Of a DNA stretch of 15,127 bases, positions 6,124 through 15,127 are shown piece by piece. The translations under genes were made by a program, and so were the position numbers. Within the stretch, counting starts at the first letter, position 1. The number at the start of each line of letters is the position of its first letter. The notes below the pieces were generated by a model, which was given only the letters and a program-made list of their open reading frames with translations, was not told the DNA's origin and did not search any database. The stretch comes from Acidobacteriaceae bacterium. Its GTDB lineage: Bacteria > Acidobacteriota > Terriglobia > Terriglobales > SbA1. The stretch lies in the NCBI GenBank assembly GCA_019237515.1, contig JAFAGX010000284.1, positions 1-15,127 of the forward strand, given 5' to 3'.

Positions 6124-7290
6124 ATGTTAACCAGGCGTGACTTCTTGTCGAAAGTTCCGGCAGCGGCGGCTGCAGCCAGTTCGCTTTATGCCGTGCCGCT
6201 GTGGGCGAGGGAAGAGCCAAACGTTGATATCCCGGGCGAAGATCGCATGATCGTGCGCTCTGCACGCTTTCTCGATCTCGAAATGCCGCCCGAATTCTTC
6301 GATTCCTGGATCACACCGGTGCCGCACTTTTTCGTGCGCAATCACATGCACGAACCGGCTGCAATCGACCTGAAACATTGGCGCATGACTATTAGCGGCG
6401 AAGTCGAGAACCCACTGACGTTAAGTTGGAAGGATCTGGAGCGAATGCCGGCGCAGACGGTCACGAATACCTTGGAATGCGCCGGAAACGGGCGGGCATT
6501 TCACCAGCCACACGTTCCTGGCGTTCAGTGGCAGAAAGGGGCCGTGGGGAATGCGCAATTTGCCGGGCCGAGGCTGCGCGACGTTTTGCAGCGCGCCGGT
6601 GTGAAGCCAACTGGCAAGCACGTAATGTTTCACGGGTTAGATGAGGTGCCGGGTAAGGTGCCGCCGTTTATCCGCAGCATACCGATTGAGAAGGCGTTAG
6701 ATGGCAACACGCTGGTCGCGACGAAGATGAACGGTAGGGCGCTGTCGAAACATCATGGATTTCCGGCCCGCGCGATGGTCCCAGGGTGGATCGGCGCTGC
6801 TTCTTGCAAATGGCTTGGCGAGATCAAAGTGCTGGACAAAGAATTTGACGGTAATTTCATGAAGCCCGGTTATCGCATACCCAACCACCCGCTGAAACCC
6901 GGGGAACCGCTTAACATAGACGATAGCCACGTACTGACCAGCTTGAATGTGAAATCCGTGATTTCGTCTCCAGCGGATCAAACAACCATCAAATTCAAAG
7001 CGCAGCAAGTTCGCGGGGCGGCATGGGCCGGTGAAGCCGAGATTGTAAGAGTCGAAGTCTCAACCGATGGCGGGACAAGTTGGGAAGACGCTCAGTTGGG
7101 GCGAGAGCAGGCGAAGTACGCATGGCGTTTGTGGAGCTATCTCTGGAACGTCCCTAAGTCTGGCGAGTACACGATCATGTCGCGCGCGACGGATAGCCAG
7201 GGACGGGTGCAGCCCGCAAGCGTCGACTGGAACCCCAGCGGCTATTTCTATAATGCTATCGATCAGGTCAAAGTTAATGTTCAAGTTTAA
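6124..7290 (+). CDS. Tat-exported molybdopterin sulfite oxidase/dehydrogenase (SorA-like)
   Basis: Periplasmic Mo enzyme expected to oxidise sulfite to sulfate and pass electrons to a cytochrome c. The 388-residue protein starts with TRRDFLS, a twin-arginine signal followed by an Ala-rich core, as needed for export of a folded Moco protein. The oxidoreductase domain spans about 60-240, with C119 in NTLECAGNGR as the expected Mo-ligating cysteine and HGFPARAMVPGWIGAASCKWLG as the second signature. The Mo-cofactor dimerisation domain follows at about 265-388, ending in SVDWNPSGY. There is no haem b5 domain, as in bacterial SorA and unlike animal sulfite oxidase. GTAGGGA about eight bases before the ATG supports the start. 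The next gene, overlapping by 14 bp, is a monohaem cytochrome c. Another substrate of this fold, such as an S- or N-oxide, cannot be excluded. Confidence 0.9.
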   Translation: MLTRRDFLSKVPAAAAAASSLYAVPLWAREEPNVDIPGEDRMIVRSARFLDLEMPPEFFDSWITPVPHFFVRNHMHEPAAIDLKHWRMTISGEVENPLTLSWKDLERMPAQTVTNTLECAGNGRAFHQPHVPGVQWQKGAVGNAQFAGPRLRDVLQRAGVKPTGKHVMFHGLDEVPGKVPPFIRSIPIEKALDGNTLVATKMNGRALSKHHGFPARAMVPGWIGAASCKWLGEIKVLDKEFDGNFMKPGYRIPNHPLKPGEPLNIDDSHVLTSLNVKSVISSPADQTTIKFKAQQVRGAAWAGEAEIVRVEVSTDGGTSWEDAQLGREQAKYAWRLWSYLWNVPKSGEYTIMSRATDSQGRVQPASVDWNPSGYFYNAIDQVKVNVQV

Positions 7291-7606
7291 GGAAGCTGCT
7301 TACGTATCTTTAATTGCCCTAGTTATTTTGTGCGGCGAACCCCTACTAGCGCAACCGCCAGAGCTTCCGCCCGGTGCGATGCAGCAAAAGGTGACAACGG
7401 CCTGCACGGAGTGCCACGAATCGCGCATCATCCTGCAACAGCGCTTGAGCAAGGCCGCATGGACAAAAGAAGTCGACAAGATGATCAAATGGGGAGCGGT
7501 CGTCGATGCCACAGACCGGGACGCATTCATTGACTACTTGAGCATAAACTTCTCCGCGGACAAGACGCCGGAGCCGATGCCAAGATCCACTGCGGCAAAA
7601 AAGTAG
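7277..7606 (+). CDS. small periplasmic monohaem cytochrome c, electron acceptor of the sulfite oxidase
   Basis: The start is the ATG at 7277, which lies inside the last codons of the sulfite oxidase gene, a 14-bp overlap in another frame. The 109-residue precursor has a signal peptide of about 25 residues (hydrophobic core VSLIALVILCG, likely cut after LLAQ). A single haem-binding motif CTECH follows (C43, C46, H47). EVDKMIKWGA and DAFIDYLSINF downstream are typical of small class I cytochromes; the Met in KMIKWG is a candidate distal haem ligand. The overlap implies translational coupling and matched amounts with the Mo subunit. The pair resembles SorAB-type sulfite dehydrogenases by arrangement, and electrons would pass on to a terminal oxidase not seen here. 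Confidence 0.88.
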   Translation: MFKFKEAAYVSLIALVILCGEPLLAQPPELPPGAMQQKVTTACTECHESRIILQQRLSKAAWTKEVDKMIKWGAVVDATDRDAFIDYLSINFSADKTPEPMPRSTAAKK

Positions 7607-7686: not shown

Positions 7687-8685
7687 TTAGCGGGCGGGCT
7701 GATGAAGGCTGCGGCGGCTCTGGTCCCATTTCCAGGCAGTGACCACGATGTCGTGCAAAGATCGCTTGGCTTTCCAGCCGAGAACTCTCTGTGCGAGCGA
7801 CGGGTCGGCGACTAACTGTGGTGGATCACCTTCTCGCCGCGGAGCAAATCGTTGCGGCACACGTTTGCCTGTAACTCGCTCGATGGTTGCAATGACCTCG
7901 CGCACTGAACTCCCCTGTCCGGTCCCTAGATTCAACGCAGTTGATGGATTGTTTTCAAGGTACTCAATGCCCGACACATGTGCTTCGGCCAGATCATTCA
8001 CGTGAATGTAATCGCGAATACAGGTGCCGTCAGGAGTCGAATAGTCACTGCCAAAAATTTCCAGCTCAGCACGCTCGCCATGGATCGCTTCGAAGGCCGA
8101 AGGAATCAGATGTGTCTCTGGATCATGAATTTCTCCGATTGCTCCACTCTCATCCGCCCCCGCCGCATTGAAGTAACGAAAAGAGACAAAACGCAATCCA
8201 TAAGCGTGACTGTAGGCTGCAAGCGCATTCTCGAATGCGACCTTGGTTATGCCGTATGGATTGATGGGCAAACGCGGAGTTTTCTCAGTGATGGGCACGA
8301 CCGCAGGTATTCCATAGGTTGCGCACGTCGAAGAGAAAATGAATTTTCGTACGCCTGAGTCTATGACCTCATTGAGCAATGAGATCCCGTCCACCACATT
8401 GTTTTGAAAATATTTTCGAGGATTGGATACAGATTCACCCACATAAGCGCAGGCGGCAAAATGCATCACAGCATCCACGCGCTGTAGCGCTGGCCGCAGC
8501 TTGCTGATGTCGGAGATATCGGCGACGATGAGCTCGAAACCTTCCGCAAGCTGCCGATGCCCAGTCGATAAATTATCGTAGATGATGGCTTCGTAGCCCT
8601 TGTGACGCAGCTCCCGAGCTGCGTGCGATCCGATATAGCCAGCGCCTCCAACTACTAGAACCCTCGATCGTCTTTGGTCGAGCAT
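7687..8685 (-). CDS. galE: UDP-glucose/UDP-hexose 4-epimerase (GalE type)
   Basis: The enzyme interconverts UDP-Glc and UDP-Gal, and in some family members UDP-GlcNAc and UDP-GalNAc. The 332-residue protein chosen from the ATG at 8685 has the NAD+ motif GGAGYIGSH (13-21), FSSTCATYG with T120 in the catalytic Ser/Thr position, Y144-GIT-K148 as the YxxxK pair, RYFNAAGAD, and the C-terminal APRREGDPP segment. Length and ends match GalE (about 325-340). The frame is open to 8820, but those 45 extra codons have no similarity to the family and cover the divergent control region. At the position of E. coli Tyr299, which limits the sugar pocket, this protein has L291, so N-acetylated sugars are possible substrates. 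It is divergent from an exopolysaccharide-like cluster and may feed it; the direction and sugar are inferred. Confidence 0.93.
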   Translation of the reverse strand: MLDQRRSRVLVVGGAGYIGSHAARELRHKGYEAIIYDNLSTGHRQLAEGFELIVADISDISKLRPALQRVDAVMHFAACAYVGESVSNPRKYFQNNVVDGISLLNEVIDSGVRKFIFSSTCATYGIPAVVPITEKTPRLPINPYGITKVAFENALAAYSHAYGLRFVSFRYFNAAGADESGAIGEIHDPETHLIPSAFEAIHGERAELEIFGSDYSTPDGTCIRDYIHVNDLAEAHVSGIEYLENNPSTALNLGTGQGSSVREVIATIERVTGKRVPQRFAPRREGDPPQLVADPSLAQRVLGWKAKRSLHDIVVTAWKWDQSRRSLHQPAR

Positions 8686-8789
8686 CTGTCCATAATACCC
8701 AACGCGCAAACGATCTGCGGATTCATTCCAAACTGAGGGTGCAACGCAATTTTTGGAGTTCTTAAGCGGGCCAGGAGTGCGGTTCCGAG

Positions 8790-8829
8790 GTGTGAAAACA
8801 CTTTCACTTGTTTTCCTCACACTTAAGTG
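8790..8829. repeat. cluster of inverted repeats, possible operator
   Basis: Three overlapping symmetries are visible: GTGAAA-ACAC-TTTCAC (8792-8807, perfect 6-bp arms), GAAAAC ... GTTTTC (8794-8799 and 8810-8815, perfect 6-bp arms, 10-bp spacer), and the perfect palindrome CACTTAAGTG (8820-8829). There is no trailing T run in either direction, so a binding site is more likely than a terminator. Confidence 0.4.
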
Positions 8830-8848
8830 GAGTCATCTCCCAAAGGTA

Positions 8849-8883
8849 ACGAAGCACGAATTACTTCTGTGCTACGAAGCACG
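8849..8883. repeat. 10-bp direct repeat ACGAAGCACG, 25-bp period
   Basis: ACGAAGCACG occurs at 8849-8858 and again at 8874-8883. Between them GTGCT (8869-8873) pairs with AGCAC (8853-8857) of the first copy. A spacing of 25 bp, about 2.4 helix turns, does not place both copies exactly on one face. It may be a protein-binding site or chance. Confidence 0.3.
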
Positions 8884-9044
8884 CTTGGACGCATACTCCG
8901 CCAGAACTTCGATCTGAACCTAAGCTGCTTTTCTAAAACCACTTAGCTGATTTGTGTGTGGCTTTGCCGGAGCGGCCGTCTCGCGGCGCACGGCACTATG
9001 GGGCTGGCAAGGTGATTGCTTCCTCTCTGACTTCCCCCCTACTG

Positions 9045-10025
9045 ATGCTCCGACTCATTCGCATGCTTCTCATGACTGGCTTGTGCACAGGTCTATGTTG
9101 TGCCCAGTCTCCCAGTGTCAAGGTAATGCCCTGGGACAATCACTCCGCTGCGGTGTCGCTGACCTTCGACGACGCGCGACCGGTACAGTTGGATGTTGCA
9201 GTCCCGGAATTAAATAAGCGGCATCTGCATGCAACCTTCTTCGTAATCGTTTCCAAGCTTACGCGTCTGGATGACTGGCGGAAGGCGCAGCTTGAAGGGC
9301 ATGAGATTGGGAATCATTCCTTGACGCATCCGCATCCGGATGTGCTCGCCAAAGCCGATGAAGAGCTTCAGGTGGAAGACGCGAAACTCTTCCTCGACAG
9401 TAATTTTCATTCCGACATTCTGGTTTTCGCGTATCCCTACTCGGAAATGTCGTCAGGGTTCGGATATTGGGTAAAGCGGTACGACTTTGCGGCTCGCGGG
9501 TGGCGTGGAGATGGAAATCTCCTTTACGTAAGTTCCGACACGGATCCGGATTGGTACAACTTGCCGAGCCAACCGGCTTACACGAAATACGGTTTAGACG
9601 CTTACAAAAGCTGGATCGAAAAAGCGGAGTCGATGCATGCCTGGACGACATTACAGATCCACGGTATCGGGGATCCTTCAACCGGTTTTGAGCCGATCCC
9701 CACAGCTACCTTCACAGCACTCCTGGACTATTTGAAAGCGGAACAGGACAAGGGTTTGTGGGTCGGCCCATTCGGTCAAGTTGCCGCATATCTGCGCGCA
9801 CAGAGAGTTCTCGAAAAAGCTCGGCTGCAAGTTGCAGGGAATGAAGAAAGGCTCAGTTGGGATTTACCAAAACCGTTTCCCACGGGTGTGGTGTTGAAGG
9901 TGACGATGAGCGGCAACGGCCGTACCCGGTTATTTCAAGGGAATCGCGAACTGCGCCGGGCGAAAGACGGCACTTACGCAGTTTCATTCGATGCAAAAGA
10001 GCTGACGATTCGAGGTCGCGCGTGA
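9045..10025 (+). CDS. secreted NodB-type polysaccharide deacetylase (CE4)
   Basis: Expected to remove acetyl groups from N-acetylated sugars of an extracellular or periplasmic glycan. From the ATG at 9045 the protein has 326 residues and starts with a signal peptide, MLRLIRMLLMTGLCTGLCCAQ. NodB motifs follow: SLTFDDA with catalytic D42 and metal-binding D43, GHEIGNHSLTHP with metal-binding H91 and H95, FAYPYSE (128-134) as motif 3, and LQIHGIG with H206 as motif 5. A further region of about 70 residues rich in beta-strand patterns closes the protein. The upstream in-frame TTG at 8952 is less likely, since it would bury the signal peptide; an ATG at 9063 is an alternative start. The stop overlaps the GTG start of the next gene (GTGA), a glycosyltransferase, suggesting a deacetylase-synthase pair as in pgaB/pgaC-like systems. 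Confidence 0.87.
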   Translation: MLRLIRMLLMTGLCTGLCCAQSPSVKVMPWDNHSAAVSLTFDDARPVQLDVAVPELNKRHLHATFFVIVSKLTRLDDWRKAQLEGHEIGNHSLTHPHPDVLAKADEELQVEDAKLFLDSNFHSDILVFAYPYSEMSSGFGYWVKRYDFAARGWRGDGNLLYVSSDTDPDWYNLPSQPAYTKYGLDAYKSWIEKAESMHAWTTLQIHGIGDPSTGFEPIPTATFTALLDYLKAEQDKGLWVGPFGQVAAYLRAQRVLEKARLQVAGNEERLSWDLPKPFPTGVVLKVTMSGNGRTRLFQGNRELRRAKDGTYAVSFDAKELTIRGRA

Positions 10026-11044
10026 AACGACTCTGCGTTCTCATTCCGGCTAAAGACGAGCGTCTCGGAATCGCGAAGACCCTGAAGAGCATTCTGAACG
10101 CGGGAGTCCTGCCGCTGGACATCTATGTCGTTGACGACGGCTCGAAAGATGGCACAGGGGAAATCGCAAAAACGTTTCAAGTGAACGTGTTGAGAAATGC
10201 GAAGAACATCGGCAAAGCGCACGCCCTGGCTCGCGCCTCGTCAGTCGCGGAACTGGTCCGACGCTATGACTACATCTGCCTAATGGATGCAGATACTGAG
10301 ATTTGCCGGGAATATTTCCAGGCGGTGCGGAACGCCTTAAGTGATCCCGAGGTGGCCGTGGTCTGCGGCCGAGCCAATAGTATTCCGCATAACTGGCTGA
10401 CAGCATATCGCTGTCTTGCGTATTGGCTGTCGCATGGCGTTTACAAGCATGGGCAAAGCAACATGGGAGTGATTACCGTAACTCCCGGCTGCGCTTCCAG
10501 CTTTCGCAATGACGCCTTCGGTCAGCTCGATTGGAACAAAGACACGATTGTCGAGGACATGGACTGCACGATCCAGGTTCATCGAAAAAATATGGGCCGG
10601 ATTGTCTATGAACCGAAGGCACGAGTGTTCACCCAGGATCCCAGCACGATTCGGGATTACATCAAGCAGATGTACCGCTGGCATACCGGCGCGTGGCAGA
10701 TCGGTCAGAAGTACCAAATGTTTGCAGGCCTGAGCAAGATCGACTGGGAATACAAGCTGCTCATGGGCGAAGGCGCATTTTTCGGGCTGCTGTACCTTTT
10801 ACTGCCGCTGTGGCTCATGGTCTTCCGGAAATTTGCCTTTGTCGCCGTCGGTATGGATGGGCTCGCTCTAATGCTGCTGTCGCTAGTTTGCGCCGTTTCG
10901 GAATCAAGAATTGACGTCTTCACCTCGTCTCCCTTGTACGTGCTCCTTCGGTTCGTGGATTGCTCGGTCTTTTTGTACAGCTTCTGGAAAACGGTCATTC
11001 TGAAAAAGCAAGTAAGAGGATGGTTTGCAGTTACCCGGTACTAA
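10022..11044 (+). CDS. family 2 glycosyltransferase, processive-type, membrane anchored
   Basis: The start is GTG at 10022, preceded by GAGGT five bases away and overlapping the deacetylase stop. The 340-residue protein has the GT-A core with VVDDGSKDGT (D38-D39), MDADTE with D89 and D91, IVEDMD with the likely base D179 and acceptor-side D181, and QMYRW (216-220). The last is the Q-x-x-R-W motif of processive synthases such as cellulose, hyaluronan and poly-GlcNAc synthases. About three membrane segments follow (about 251-267, 271-290 and 305-325). N-terminal membrane helices found in PgaC/IcaA are absent, so it is shorter than those (about 400). It most likely polymerises a UDP-sugar at the inner membrane; the neighbouring deacetylase points to an N-acetylhexosamine, but this is inference. 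Confidence 0.9.
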   Translation: MKRLCVLIPAKDERLGIAKTLKSILNAGVLPLDIYVVDDGSKDGTGEIAKTFQVNVLRNAKNIGKAHALARASSVAELVRRYDYICLMDADTEICREYFQAVRNALSDPEVAVVCGRANSIPHNWLTAYRCLAYWLSHGVYKHGQSNMGVITVTPGCASSFRNDAFGQLDWNKDTIVEDMDCTIQVHRKNMGRIVYEPKARVFTQDPSTIRDYIKQMYRWHTGAWQIGQKYQMFAGLSKIDWEYKLLMGEGAFFGLLYLLLPLWLMVFRKFAFVAVGMDGLALMLLSLVCAVSESRIDVFTSSPLYVLLRFVDCSVFLYSFWKTVILKKQVRGWFAVTRY

Positions 11045-11047
11045 CAG

Positions 11048-11869
11048 ATGAAACTTAGGCTTTTGGCACTAATCACGTTGTTGCTGGTGAGGTCACTGGC
11101 ATTGGCACAGGCTGCGGCACCCGCGGTGCAAGGGACGGTCATCGATGGCATGGGCTTGCCCGGCCAGGCATGGACTTCGCTGGGCAATGTGAGTCCGATC
11201 GAGCGCAACAATGTGTATTCGCAATCGTATTTCGAGCAAGGCGCAACCGTTTGGGCCACAAACTCGGGCGGAGTGACGGTGACTCCATACGCCTCGCTGG
11301 GTCTTCTCTTCGACACCGACGGCGATCCTTGGAACAACAGTATCCAGCCAACCGCAGGACTGAAAGCGAACAAATTTTTCCGCAACGGGGTTGTGAGTTT
11401 CGGTTCGGCGTACGCCTATCAAGATCGGTTCAACAGCATCCACAGCAGCGCACTGATGTACTACGCGCAAGACTGGTTTGGCTGGCAACCCGTAACCGAG
11501 AAAGCCAGCCGGTTCCCGGGAAGTACATGGGCGATTGTGGGCAACGTTTCGCCGGTCGAGCACGGAAACCTGATCGCGCAAGGCTTTATCACGCAAGGCG
11601 TAGTCGCAAAGCGATTCAAAGCGGCGACGCTGGTACCGTTCGGGCAAACCACATTGTCCCGCGACACTCACGGTTTTGACTGGGACAACAAGGCCATTTA
11701 TGGCGGTGGATTAAAAGCAGTCGTTCCGCACGGCGATGCCTACACGGAATTGGGGCTCGCCTATCTGCGCGAGCGACGATTTGATCCCGACCGCTCCGCT
11801 GGCCAGGTCGCGATTTTCATGAATTTTTCGTTCGGTTGGAATCTCTTAGGAAGAAAGGTGGGTCGATAA
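11048..11869 (+). CDS. outer-membrane beta-barrel-like protein with internal duplication
   Basis: The gene begins three bases after the glycosyltransferase stop. The 273-residue product has a clear signal peptide (MKLRLLALITLLLVRSLALAQ) followed by alternating aromatic and polar stretches typical of outer-membrane strands, and ends in NFSFGWNLLGRKVGR. Two similar halves are visible about 119 residues apart: about 37-128 with GNVSPIERNN, SQSYFEQG and FDTDGDPWNN, and about 156-245 with GNVSPVEHGN, AQGFITQG and RDTHGFDWDN. There are no TPR repeats, unlike PgaA or BcsC. Its place after a synthase suggests an export pore or surface partner for the glycan; this is inferred from position and strand pattern. 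I cannot assign a named family; a distant link to the C-terminal barrels of NfrA or BcsC is only a guess. Confidence 0.75.
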   Translation: MKLRLLALITLLLVRSLALAQAAAPAVQGTVIDGMGLPGQAWTSLGNVSPIERNNVYSQSYFEQGATVWATNSGGVTVTPYASLGLLFDTDGDPWNNSIQPTAGLKANKFFRNGVVSFGSAYAYQDRFNSIHSSALMYYAQDWFGWQPVTEKASRFPGSTWAIVGNVSPVEHGNLIAQGFITQGVVAKRFKAATLVPFGQTTLSRDTHGFDWDNKAIYGGGLKAVVPHGDAYTELGLAYLRERRFDPDRSAGQVAIFMNFSFGWNLLGRKVGR

Positions 11870-11871
11870 CC

Positions 11872-11985
11872 ATGTCGTATGTGGGATTTGGAAGTATTTC
11901 CGGAATTGTTCACCTGCTGGCCAGACTCAATTTCACTGGCAGGATCATGGTGATCGGGGCGCTCCTGATTGTGCTTTGCCGTTGA
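11872..11985 (+). CDS. predicted 37-aa single-helix membrane peptide
   Basis: An ATG two bases after the stop of the barrel gene opens a 37-codon frame ending in TGA at 11983-11985. It encodes MSYVGFGSISGIVHLLARLN, then FTGRIMVIGALLIVLCR, so the second half is one hydrophobic helix with a positive flank. Purine-rich AAGGTGG lies about 13 bases upstream, which is a poor ribosome site, but translation could be coupled to the preceding gene. Small membrane subunits are common in polysaccharide synthase clusters, and this position would suit one, yet the frame is short enough to be chance. No family is recognised. Confidence 0.35.
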   Translation: MSYVGFGSISGIVHLLARLNFTGRIMVIGALLIVLCR

Positions 11986-12038
11986 GATTTTTCAAGGCGG
12001 CACATTAAGGATTAACGGCAGATCGAGATTGGAGTTAT

Positions 12039-13973
12039 ATGCGGAGTTTCAGAATCGTCGCGTTATTGCTTGTTGCGGGCTCGGCTACAGCTTTAGCCGC
12101 TAGCGGTCCGGAGTTGGTGTCGGTCAACTTGAGCTCGCCGATGGTAATTGGCGGCAGTGAAGTGCATGGCACTGTGACGCTCAACTCCGCAGCACCGTAT
12201 GACGTCCAAGTGTCCCTGGCTGCCGATCCGGCGAACGCAGCCAAGATTCCTGCAAGTGTGACCGTGCCGGCGGGATCCAAGGATGCGAGTTTCGCGATCA
12301 ATACCTTACCCAGGACGATTGGTCCAGGTGGTGGTGACGCGGTGATTACGGTTTATGGTAACTACGGAGTAACTAAGCGTGGTTCTCTCACCGTGCTGCC
12401 TCCCGTTTCGTTCGAGCAGATGATCGATCGCGTCGTGGAGCGCGAACGCACGTTAGTCAGCACAATAAAGAGCATGCATCCATTGGCTGAGACATATATC
12501 CAGGACCTTCGCGAAGACAAGAACCACAACGTGCAGCCAGTAAACGATCACTATTTTCTAGGACGGCTCGATTTTCACGAGGGACCGCAAGATGAGTTGT
12601 TCCAGAACCACAATTCAAGCTCGTTCTCGGCTCTCCTGAATATGATTTCCGCCGGCTTCACACATCAGTTTTTGCCGCGTGGCTTTGCGCAAATGGCAAT
12701 GCTCGATGGGGATTTCCAGAAGAGCAATTACAACTTCACGTATGTTCGGCAGGAATTCCTTGGCGAGGCGCGTTGCCTTGTGATCGATATTCAACCAAAA
12801 GACAAAGCACCGAGCGGCTTGTTCACAGGAAGAATCTGGGTGGAAGACCGCGAGTTCAATATTGTCCGCTTTAATGGGACGTATTCGGCGCACTCCCGTT
12901 ATACCTACTATCTCCACTTTGATAGTTGGCGCTTGAACGTGCAACCGCATTTGTGGCTGCCTGCGTATATCTACATTGAGGAGTCAGGTACGAAGCTGAA
13001 GACTCCACCTTTTCATAGCTTGTACTTCAAAGCGCAGACCCGCCTGTGGGCTTATGACCCTGAGTCACTGAAACACAACGACGAATTTACAGGTATCAAG
13101 CTAGACAGCTCGGTAGACGACCACGCATCGATCGCCGACAAAAGCCCGGTACAAGCGCAGCGTTTGTGGGAGCGCATGGCGGAAGACAATGCTGTAGATC
13201 ATCTGCAAAAGATCGGGCTGCTCGCCCCTCGCGGAGAGGTCGACACAGTTCTACAGACCGTCACCAACAATTTAATCATCACCAACAAATTGGAAATCGA
13301 GCCTGACGTGCGCTGCCGGGTGTTACTGACTACTCCTCTTGAGTCTTTTACGATTGGCCACACCATCGTGGTGAGCCGTGGACTGCTGGATGTCCTGCCC
13401 GATGAATCCTCCCTGGCAATGGTCATCGCTCACGAGCTAAGTCATATTGCTCTGGGACACCGCGTTAGCACCAATCTCGCATTCGCAGACCGTTTTCTGT
13501 TCCCAGATCTCTCTACGTTTCAGCATCTGGATTTTGCGCGTAGCCCGACCGACGAAGAAGCCGCCGACAAGAAGGGAATGGAGTTGCTGGCGAACTCTCC
13601 CTACAAAGACAAGCTGGCCAATGCGGGGCTTTTCTTAAAGGCACTGCAAGACCATGCATCGCTTTCCAATCTGATCCGGCCGCATCTTGGAAATAGAATG
13701 CGCAATCATAGCGAGATGCGAATGGCCGCACTGTTGAGCACGGCGCCAGCATTGGAGAAACAGCGGATCGATCAGATTGCGGCGCTTCCCATGGGCGGCC
13801 GGATCAAGCTAAGTCCCTGGAATGACCAGTTGTACCTGATGAAGCTCGAATCGGTCGCGCTGCTGTCACCCCAGGAAAAGATGCCGTTCGAGGTAGCACC
13901 TTTTTTCCCCTACGTGAGCTATAGCGCTTCAGCCGGCCAGGCCGAAGTAGCGGAGATCGCGGCGAAGCCATAA
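12039..13973 (+). CDS. secreted M48-type zinc metalloprotease with N-terminal Ig-like and LolA-like regions
   Basis: The 644-residue protein starts behind GGAG with a signal peptide (MRSFRIVALLLVAGSATALA). Residues about 24-120 look like one Ig-like beta domain (VHGTVTLNS, VTVPAGSKDASFAI, GSLTVLPP). Residues about 125-345 form a region with EFLGEARCLVIDIQP, GRIWVEDREFNIVRFNGTY and LWLPAYIYIEE, which resembles the LolA/LppX-type lipid-binding fold of outer-membrane lipoprotein sorting proteins. The peptidase region at about 385-570 has HELSH (H465, E466, H469) and a downstream E506-EAA-D510, the M48 third-ligand motif. All zinc ligands are present. Known M48 proteins such as BepA act in outer-membrane quality control, so a role in maturing or removing envelope proteins of this locus is plausible but unproven. 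It begins 53 bp after the small peptide gene. Confidence 0.82.
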   Translation: MRSFRIVALLLVAGSATALAASGPELVSVNLSSPMVIGGSEVHGTVTLNSAAPYDVQVSLAADPANAAKIPASVTVPAGSKDASFAINTLPRTIGPGGGDAVITVYGNYGVTKRGSLTVLPPVSFEQMIDRVVERERTLVSTIKSMHPLAETYIQDLREDKNHNVQPVNDHYFLGRLDFHEGPQDELFQNHNSSSFSALLNMISAGFTHQFLPRGFAQMAMLDGDFQKSNYNFTYVRQEFLGEARCLVIDIQPKDKAPSGLFTGRIWVEDREFNIVRFNGTYSAHSRYTYYLHFDSWRLNVQPHLWLPAYIYIEESGTKLKTPPFHSLYFKAQTRLWAYDPESLKHNDEFTGIKLDSSVDDHASIADKSPVQAQRLWERMAEDNAVDHLQKIGLLAPRGEVDTVLQTVTNNLIITNKLEIEPDVRCRVLLTTPLESFTIGHTIVVSRGLLDVLPDESSLAMVIAHELSHIALGHRVSTNLAFADRFLFPDLSTFQHLDFARSPTDEEAADKKGMELLANSPYKDKLANAGLFLKALQDHASLSNLIRPHLGNRMRNHSEMRMAALLSTAPALEKQRIDQIAALPMGGRIKLSPWNDQLYLMKLESVALLSPQEKMPFEVAPFFPYVSYSASAGQAEVAEIAAKP

Positions 13974-14048
13974 AGCTCGCTACAAGTCATTGTTCGTTTA
14001 GACATTCTCCCCCGCCTTCCCCAACCTGTGGTGGTTAGAAAGGAAGTT

Positions 14049-15127
14049 ATGCGGAAATACCTTGTATTGTGGGTTGGTCTTTTCTTCAGTTGCATGCTGG
14101 TGGGCTGCGGAGGTGGAAGTCTCAGCAGTAACCCCAGCAACAATCAATCTTCGACACCAACGCCACCCAATCCGAACTATAACCCTCAGGCTGCCAAATA
14201 CGGCCAGTGGACGACGAGCACCACAAAAATGCCCATTAACCCGATCCACGCGGCTCTGCTGCATACCGGGAAAATTCTTGTAGTCTCAGGCTCCGGAAAT
14301 TGTCCGCCGCAGCAGGCCGGCTGTCCCCAAGGTCCGCAGTATTCTCAAGGCGCCGCGCTGTTTGATTTGTCAAACAACAACACTCACATCATTCCCACCA
14401 GCTGGGACATGTTTTGCAATGGCATGTCCATCATGCAAGATGGGCGAGCGCTGCTCCAGGGCGGCACAAAAACCTACGGCACATTGGCGTTAGTTGGCGC
14501 AGCCGGGGATACTCCGTTTTTGGGCTTGCCCAATGCGTCGATTTTCGATCCATCCAGCGAATCTTTCGGTGATATACCCGCAACGGCCCACGGACGCTGG
14601 TATCCCACGGTGACGGAATTAAACGACGGCCGAATGATGACTACGGCTGGGTTGAACGACAGCGATGGCAATAACAACAACACCAGCGAAATCTGGAACG
14701 GACAACAATGGAGCGCCGAAATTGCAGGCAACCCGAACATTCCGGATTTTCCCACATTCCAATTTCCACTCTATCCACGCATGCATCTGCTGCCAACGGG
14801 GCATGTCTTCTACTCGGCCCCATCATCGGCGGCGCTCGATTTTGATCCAAGCACTCAGACTTGGAAGCTGGTGGCTTGGACAATCTATCCGGGATTGACT
14901 GATCCCAACGGCGAGCGAACCTACGGAACGTCGGTGCTTTTGCCCCTGACTCCCCAGAACAATTACAGCCCGAAGGTGATCATCATGGGGGGCGACAATC
15001 CGGCCACCAACACAACTGAGTTGATTGACTTGAGCCCAGCAGGAATGAACATTTCTTCCTCATGCCCAAATTACGCACCCTGTTGGGTACAAGGGCCACC
15101 GATGGCGCAGGCGCGCGTCGAAATGGA
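14049..15127 (+). CDS. galactose/glyoxal oxidase-like Kelch lipoprotein, putative copper-radical oxidase, 3' partial
   Basis: The frame opens at an ATG behind AAAGGAAG and stays open to the window edge; 359 residues are visible. The signal peptide ends in the lipobox LVGC (C20), then a Gly/Ser/Asn/Pro-rich linker, so it is a lipoprotein on the cell surface or in the periplasm. Kelch-like repeats follow: ALLQGGTKTYG, RMMTTAGLNDSDG and VIIMGGDN. DMFCNGMSIMQDGR with C123 matches the galactose oxidase DMFCPGISMD site, and GRWYPTVTELNDGR with Y185 matches the partner tyrosine of the Tyr-Cys radical cofactor. The spacing of 62 residues is close to that of glyoxal oxidase. The axial Tyr-His pair and the last His ligand would lie beyond the edge and cannot be checked. 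Such enzymes oxidise an alcohol or aldehyde to give H2O2; its place after a glycan cluster suggests glycan modification, like GlxA beside CslA in Streptomyces. Confidence 0.82.
   Translation, partial: MRKYLVLWVGLFFSCMLVGCGGGSLSSNPSNNQSSTPTPPNPNYNPQAAKYGQWTTSTTKMPINPIHAALLHTGKILVVSGSGNCPPQQAGCPQGPQYSQGAALFDLSNNNTHIIPTSWDMFCNGMSIMQDGRALLQGGTKTYGTLALVGAAGDTPFLGLPNASIFDPSSESFGDIPATAHGRWYPTVTELNDGRMMTTAGLNDSDGNNNNTSEIWNGQQWSAEIAGNPNIPDFPTFQFPLYPRMHLLPTGHVFYSAPSSAALDFDPSTQTWKLVAWTIYPGLTDPNGERTYGTSVLLPLTPQNNYSPKVIIMGGDNPATNTTELIDLSPAGMNISSSCPNYAPCWVQGPPMAQARVEM

Follow-up and report, generated by a model that had tools for sequence, protein, structure and literature searches.

In Streptomyces, cslA and glxA form a putative operon with a converging endoglucanase gene, a three-gene linkage that was confined to Streptomyces among the genomes examined in 2013 (PMC3543389). 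The CslA and GlxA proteins are reported to form a complex (PMC11022532), and the active site of GlxA is described as comprising the Cys-Tyr cofactor residues, an axial tyrosine, two histidines and a second-shell tryptophan, W288, that matters (PMC13094651). In the Gram-negative Stigmatella aurantiaca, a galactose-oxidase-like gene, fbfB, is described beside a glycosyltransferase gene (PMC3543389), and a cellulose locus described in acidobacteria is composed of bcsAB, bcsZ (a GH8 enzyme) and bcsC (PMC9693552). Here, a 15,127-nucleotide stretch of DNA from an Acidobacteriaceae bacterium (contig JAFAGX010000284.1 of assembly GCA_019237515.1; "the window" refers to this whole stretch) is examined for a locus at positions 9045-15127, where six closely packed genes on the + strand encode a deacetylase, a GT2 glycosyltransferase, a barrel, a small peptide, an M48 protein and an oxidase. 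The same genes recur together in related genomes, and the locus is, with moderate confidence, a surface-glycan system of the synthase-dependent kind, equipped with its own copper radical oxidase. No description of the gene set was found in the open literature, as judged mostly by titles and the beginnings of abstracts, with subscription papers mostly outside the scope of the search; the papers retrieved included the established work on GlxA and galactose oxidases and one on acidobacterial cellulose.

The genes of the cluster, and the galE gene that diverges from it, are as follows.

9045-10025, + strand: secreted CE4 (NodB-fold) polysaccharide deacetylase, 326 residues; PF01522 66 bits; motifs TFDD and HSLTH
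10022-11044, + strand: GT2 synthase-like glycosyltransferase, 340 residues; PF00535 82 bits, PF13632 71 bits; motifs VDDGS, DAD, VED and QMYRW
11048-11869, + strand: predicted outer-membrane beta-barrel, 273 residues, with a two-fold internal repeat; 12-strand AlphaFold2 model
11872-11985, + strand: single-pass membrane peptide, 37 residues, motif GSxSGxxHxxAR; homologues in relatives
12039-13973, + strand: M48 metalloprotease with immunoglobulin (Ig)-like and LolA-like parts and a hydrophobic N-terminus, 644 residues; PF01435 37 bits; motifs HELSH and DEEAAD
14049-15127, + strand: GlxA-type copper radical oxidase lipoprotein, truncated by the contig end, 359 residues; NF052501 128 bits, below the cut-off; motifs DMFC and RWYP
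7687-8820, - strand: galE, divergent from the cluster; TIGR01179 401 bits, cut-off 262

Open reading frames together with Pfam and NCBIfam scores place these genes near where the sequence-only reading, which had proposed them as parts of one possible glycan synthesis and modification locus, had put them. The deacetylase and GT2 genes overlap by 4 base pairs (bp), and the distances that follow are 3 bp from GT2 to barrel, 2 bp from barrel to peptide, 53 bp from peptide to M48 and 75 bp from M48 to oxidase. A weak scan, in which sites were no more frequent than in shuffled sequences, found no terminator-like sites on the + strand between the cluster genes. The contig stops within the oxidase gene, of which the first 359 residues are encoded.

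Conservation of the set was followed in relative genomes (G) and their loci or contigs (L), the named relatives being metagenome assemblies, many with short contigs. A scan of genome contigs with a GT2 alignment returned nine loci in eight genomes, all from metagenome assemblies whose titles name Acidobacteria, Acidobacteriaceae or Acidobacteriota, and a ninth GT2 genome, G150, was added from an order sample in which 7 of 397 genomes contain the GT2. The sequence-only reading had staked its proposal on linkage of the barrel, M48 and oxidase genes to the GT2 in related genomes, and that linkage is borne out: the barrel adjoins the GT2 on all 10 relative contigs (9 genomes), and the Ig-bearing M48 protein and the oxidase are each found on the GT2 contig in five of the nine genomes. 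Since the same genes recur in this way, the set is unlikely to be a product of chance. A deacetylase of the window type (50-75% identity) is likewise present on the GT2 contig in seven of the nine.

In L003 the entire order deacetylase-GT2-barrel-peptide-M48-oxidase is repeated at 57-69% identity and is followed by a converging GH16 gene; in L004 and L005 these genes occur in a different arrangement. The oxidase copies of G004 and G005 are cut by the contig end, and in G002, G006 and G007 the oxidase is on a separate contig. In G002, deacetylase, GT2, barrel, peptide and a TonB gene share one contig and M48, oxidase and GH16 another, with the M48 gene beside the oxidase gene but cut by the contig end so that any Ig domain would lie beyond it; G007 shows the same two-contig split, again with M48 beside the oxidase, minus the deacetylase. 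The relatives' GH16-PKD glycanase gene is convergent with the oxidase gene in L003, L055 and L088 and with the M48 gene in L004, and a TonB_C gene occurs on the contig of the locus or of its M48 gene in G001, G002, G006, G007 and G008. Metagenome proteins give a hint only that relatives of the GT2 and of the barrel share contigs: among the matches listed, 14 of the 119 distinct longest-contig sizes of GT2 relatives recur among the 117 for barrel relatives, and one such size (54266) is common to the GT2, barrel and M48 relatives.

GT2 and oxidase also co-occur across genomes. Of 398 genomes sampled from the family to which G001 belongs, 9 contain the GT2, and in a phylum sample only the query centre does (1 of 391). 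An oxidase subtype, defined by matches above 800 bits (G005 being counted on the strength of a 584-bit match to 305 positions at a contig edge), occurs in eight of the nine GT2-positive genomes and in none of the 389 GT2-negative ones (Fisher 6e-16, kinship ignored). A wider oxidase search matched 55 of the 398 genomes, the best match outside the subtype reaching 628 bits and covering positions 47-553 only. The GT2, M48 and oxidase searches each drew 398 genomes with the same settings, so that the samples are presumed identical, and scored at most five, three and three candidates per genome, respectively; the order, family and phylum samples overlap, include the query centre and are not estimates of prevalence.

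In a tree of 31 oxidase sequences, the nine rows of the subtype (the window and eight from seven GT2 genomes) are separated from the rest by a branch supported at 97/100, with long branches among the other rows. The tree was built from 41 stretches that passed a length limit, of which ten were left out, namely six duplicates and four fragments (L076, L081, L091 and L094, two of them also copies of each other). The oxidase pieces of L004, L005 and L083 fell below the length limit, hence the absence of G005, and the tree excludes oxidase paralogues of GT2 genomes that lie outside any returned locus, such as G003:C23 and G007:C21.

From the gene set, its motifs, its linkage and its co-occurrence we infer a scheme in which the substrate, the order of steps, the localization and the activity of every part are all provisional. 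At the inner membrane, the GT2 would polymerize a sugar, which is most likely an N-acetylhexosamine in beta linkage, and pass the chain to the periplasm, and the CE4 enzyme would strip acetyl groups from it. The 12-strand barrel and the membrane peptide, with the TonB protein in some relatives, may form or gate a passage through the outer membrane, while the Ig/LolA-like/M48 protein could work in the periplasm, as a protease or a chaperone, on the maturation or quality control of the barrel or of the oxidase lipoprotein. The oxidase itself, probably at the outer membrane, would oxidize primary alcohols on the emerging chain, giving hydrogen peroxide, and the GH16 glycanase of the relatives would trim the chain. 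A more elaborate version, that of a self-curing glycan in which amines left by the deacetylase and C6 aldehydes made by the oxidase cross-link a single polymer through imine bonds while the M48 protein guards maturation of barrel and oxidase, is a long shot; if true, it would give a two-membrane soil bacterium a tough coat.

As to the sugar, the protein families point in two directions, the deacetylase and the PgaC-like GT2 to an amino sugar and the GH16 of the relatives to a beta-glucan. The deacetylase, for which the start is best placed at ATG 9045, has a hydrophobic N-terminus (residues 1-19), TFDD at residue 40 and HSLTH at residue 91, and its TFDD and HSxxH stretches align with those of PgdA (2C1G). 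It scores 24 bits against the IcaB model (cut-off 248), and no second domain is found in it by Pfam. The GT2, which has hydrophobic segments at residues 256-274 and 281-299, finds its top NCBIfam model in PgaC_IcaA at 91 bits against a cut-off of 422, and reaches only 23 bits against the CelA model (cut-off 699), so that it is not cellulose-synthase-like as judged by model rather than by direct alignment to CslA.

An alternative, less probable than the amino-sugar system but the likeliest of the rivals, is that the glycan is a cellulose-like or mixed-linkage-like beta-glucan, with a CE4 enzyme that targets O-acetyl groups or else peptidoglycan, so that the polymer can get through. For the GH16 proteins of the relatives, the nearest models are those of the beta-glucanases ExoK and BglS, with scores under the cut-offs, and the nearest solved structures are beta-glucanases; the Streptomyces counterpart is described as producing cellulose (PMC11022532), and the solved structures closest to the deacetylase are mostly peptidoglycan deacetylases. 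This must be set against a GT2 that is far closer to PgaC/IcaA than to CelA and against the position of the CE4 gene, which lies directly upstream of the GT2 gene, overlapping it or almost so, in the window and in four of the nine genomes (G001, G002, G003 and G150).

Two relatives show further variation at these genes. In L001 (1971-2990) the GT2 gene contains one in-frame stop, reflecting either decay or an assembly error. In G007 the deacetylase is replaced by a 491-residue protein (L009 8526-9998 and L007 2-640) whose gene runs 4 bp into the start of the GT2 gene and which has no match in Pfam, NCBIfam or the PDB; an AHHEGALV-like stretch of this protein recurs in the N-terminal part of the GT2 cluster P0073.

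The oxidase begins at ATG 14049 with an LVGC lipobox read from the sequence, and because of this lipoprotein signal it is probably located in the outer membrane. The window fragment scores 35.4 bits against Glyoxal_oxid_N, slightly under the cut-off of 37.5, and 128 bits against the GlxA model NF052501, for which even the full-length L003 protein reaches 306 bits against a cut-off of 800. The fragment retains the cysteine (DMFC) and the Trp-Tyr pair (RWYP), and in the full-length oxidases of relatives (about 580-600 residues) the cysteine, Trp-Tyr, Tyr-His and histidine residues of a copper radical oxidase are all kept at positions aligned with GlxA. These residues were assigned in this work from an alignment of the L003 protein to 4UNM and a motif scan of the relatives. 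That the oxidase instead partners the synthase structurally or supplies hydrogen peroxide, and does not modify the glycan, is an unlikely explanation: it would accord with the reported complex of GlxA with CslA and with the way the subtype follows the GT2 genome by genome, but the lipoprotein signal would set the window oxidase apart from an inner-membrane synthase, and the conserved copper-site residues suggest that catalysis matters.

Copper radical oxidases with other architectures occur in Acidobacteriota as well, some of them in long open frames (L065-L087), mostly in genomes that lack a GT2 of the window type.

The M48 protein carries HELSH at residue 465 and DEEAAD at residue 505, that is, an HExxH motif with a downstream glutamate, and its PF01435 score exceeds the cut-off of 20.3. 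Its LolA-like middle part is weak (LolA_like 16.7 bits, under a cut-off of 30). In a structural model with a predicted local distance difference test (pLDDT) score of 52, the Ig-like region 26-120 is good, part of 220-340 is fair and the M48 catalytic part is poor; a fold search with this model gave top matches that were partly spurious and nothing useful except Ig-like folds. The M48 family as such was ruled out as a marker of the locus, being present in 340 of 398 genomes, and it is the Ig-bearing form alone that tracks the GT2: among the matches listed, those starting by residue 25, and thus including the Ig domain, occur in seven of the nine GT2 genomes and in 1 of 389 others. Other early matches listed, in G433 from residue 29 and in G132, G202 and G402 from residues 48-64, have much lower scores. 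In G175, a GT2-free genome, a TonB_C-like gene adjoins an M48 protein without the Ig domain (L057 8643-11194).

For the 273-residue protein, the AlphaFold2 model has 12 strands (mean pLDDT 64, predicted template modelling score 0.59), and Foldseek ranks outer-membrane barrels, invasin and PcoB among them, as its best matches, which supports assignment as a predicted outer-membrane barrel, with the fold search naming no function. Its N- and C-terminal halves align over 97 columns with 34% identity (E 3e-16), so that the gene probably arose by duplication. The 37-residue peptide looks like a real gene, given that homologues 50-80% identical stand at the same place in five relatives (L001-L005), that longer forms with a similar N-terminus occur in L006, L008 and L023 and, more loosely, L007, and that its codons vary least at second positions in 15 of 15 pairwise comparisons and most at third positions in 13 of the 15, third positions tying with first in the other two. 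A peptide-like motif also opens some M48 proteins in frame (P0310, P0339) and begins longer proline-containing proteins in L006, L008 and L023, hinting that it may be a recurring membrane anchor.

Several observations weigh against a single surface-glycan system with a dedicated oxidase. The GT2 has no N-terminal transmembrane segment at the threshold used and scores far under all curated synthase models, so that its processivity is putative; the barrel is modelled with middling confidence and is like barrels generally rather than like a known glycan exporter; and in the window itself the cofactor residues past Trp-Tyr fall beyond the contig end. Membership of the set also varies. G007 has no deacetylase match and the unrelated 491-residue protein in its position, and G008 has only a different Big_2-CE4 protein near the GT2. 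G150 consists of deacetylase, GT2 and barrel, neither an oxidase nor an M48 match having passed the thresholds applied, while in G001 the M48 gene is on a separate contig, away from the oxidase found, and G435 has the Ig-bearing M48 protein without the GT2. GH16 matches in L008 and L089 are weaker and differently oriented, and none was found in G001, G005 and G150 in a search made without a positive control. The incomplete sets reflect contig breaks together with some true losses.

A quite improbable explanation of this unevenness is that the locus consists of two neighbouring but independent units, an operon of deacetylase, GT2 and barrel and a pair of M48 and oxidase with a function of its own, as might be read from G001 and G150, from the wider gaps before M48 and the oxidase and from the near-universal presence of other M48 family members, but the parts stay together in the reordered L004 and L005 and in L008 with its different CE4 protein, and the oxidase subtype is absent from the 389 GT2-negative genomes searched.

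The galE gene is a different matter. The sequence-only reading had counted it as a member, but no galE match is found at E <= 1e-4 on any of the 10 relative GT2 contigs, of which L003, L004, L008, L009 and L023 have at least 4 kb upstream and the other five little, and galE is therefore excluded from the set. The likeness to galactosaminogalactan-type pathways that had been drawn from it rested on the epimerase as a member, and likewise goes unsupported. Elsewhere in the window, 722-2473 encodes a single protein in which an MgtE_N domain is combined with an ABC ATPase and, at the C-terminus, an AAA-associated domain, and at 6124-7606 a molybdopterin oxidoreductase bearing a Mo-co dimerisation domain precedes a small CxxCH protein without a Pfam match, a pair that is perhaps sulfite-dehydrogenase-like.

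If the surface-glycan system with its dedicated oxidase is real, the partnership between membrane glycan synthase and radical copper oxidase extends beyond Streptomyces into a common two-membrane soil phylum, with other protein families filling the remaining roles. The effect of the oxidase on the glycan would then become testable in a second system, and the locus would offer a candidate route to oxidized, partly deacetylated polymers.

How the locus stands among described systems can be judged from several comparisons. Plasmid searches returned only GT2s and oxidases of less than 60% identity. Of four plasmid regions read, those around the oxidases of Streptomyces NBC_01431 and Nostoc C052 show no GT2 within 6 kb in an incomplete gene table, that of a Sinorhizobium plasmid is unannotated, and in a Mesorhizobium plasmid the GT2 is followed by a DUF3131 gene. 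The acidobacterial bcsAB-bcsZ-bcsC locus is likewise a polysaccharide synthase locus of Acidobacteriota, but none of its genes is present here. The fbfB region of Stigmatella, compared by description and not by sequence, is divergent and has no endoglucanase nearby.

The PgaABCD/IcaADBC systems share more with the locus, including a GT2 for which PgaC/IcaA is the nearest model, a barrel and a secreted CE4 deacetylase with its PF01522 domain. The resemblance is limited by the GT2 score far under the model cut-off, by the oxidase, by a deacetylase without a second Pfam domain and by the absence of any PgaD match listed among the window proteins. In the familiar layouts of PgaA, PgaB and PgaD, moreover, PgaA has a TPR part, for which the 273-residue barrel is too small.

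The Streptomyces CslA-GlxA-CslZ(-LpmP) system provides the closest parallel. In both, a GT2 gene is linked to the gene of a GlxA-type oxidase that keeps its copper-site residues, and in L003, L055 and L088, if not in L008 and L089, a converging glycanase gene lies by that of the oxidase. Unlike the Streptomyces proteins, the acidobacterial GT2 is not CelA-type by model score and the oxidase falls well below the GlxA cut-off; the glycanase is GH16, whereas CslZ belongs to another family. The acidobacterial set further adds the CE4 deacetylase, an outer-membrane barrel, a small membrane peptide, the M48 protein and in some genomes TonB, and its oxidase is a lipoprotein of a two-membrane cell, unlike that of Streptomyces. 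The barrel, the lipoprotein oxidase and the TonB of some relatives may be parts added for the needs of such a cell. By the tests made, the locus is not a member of the CslA-GlxA-CslZ system but may function like it, and it is best read as a variant of the theme of GT2 plus copper radical oxidase, built from other protein families.

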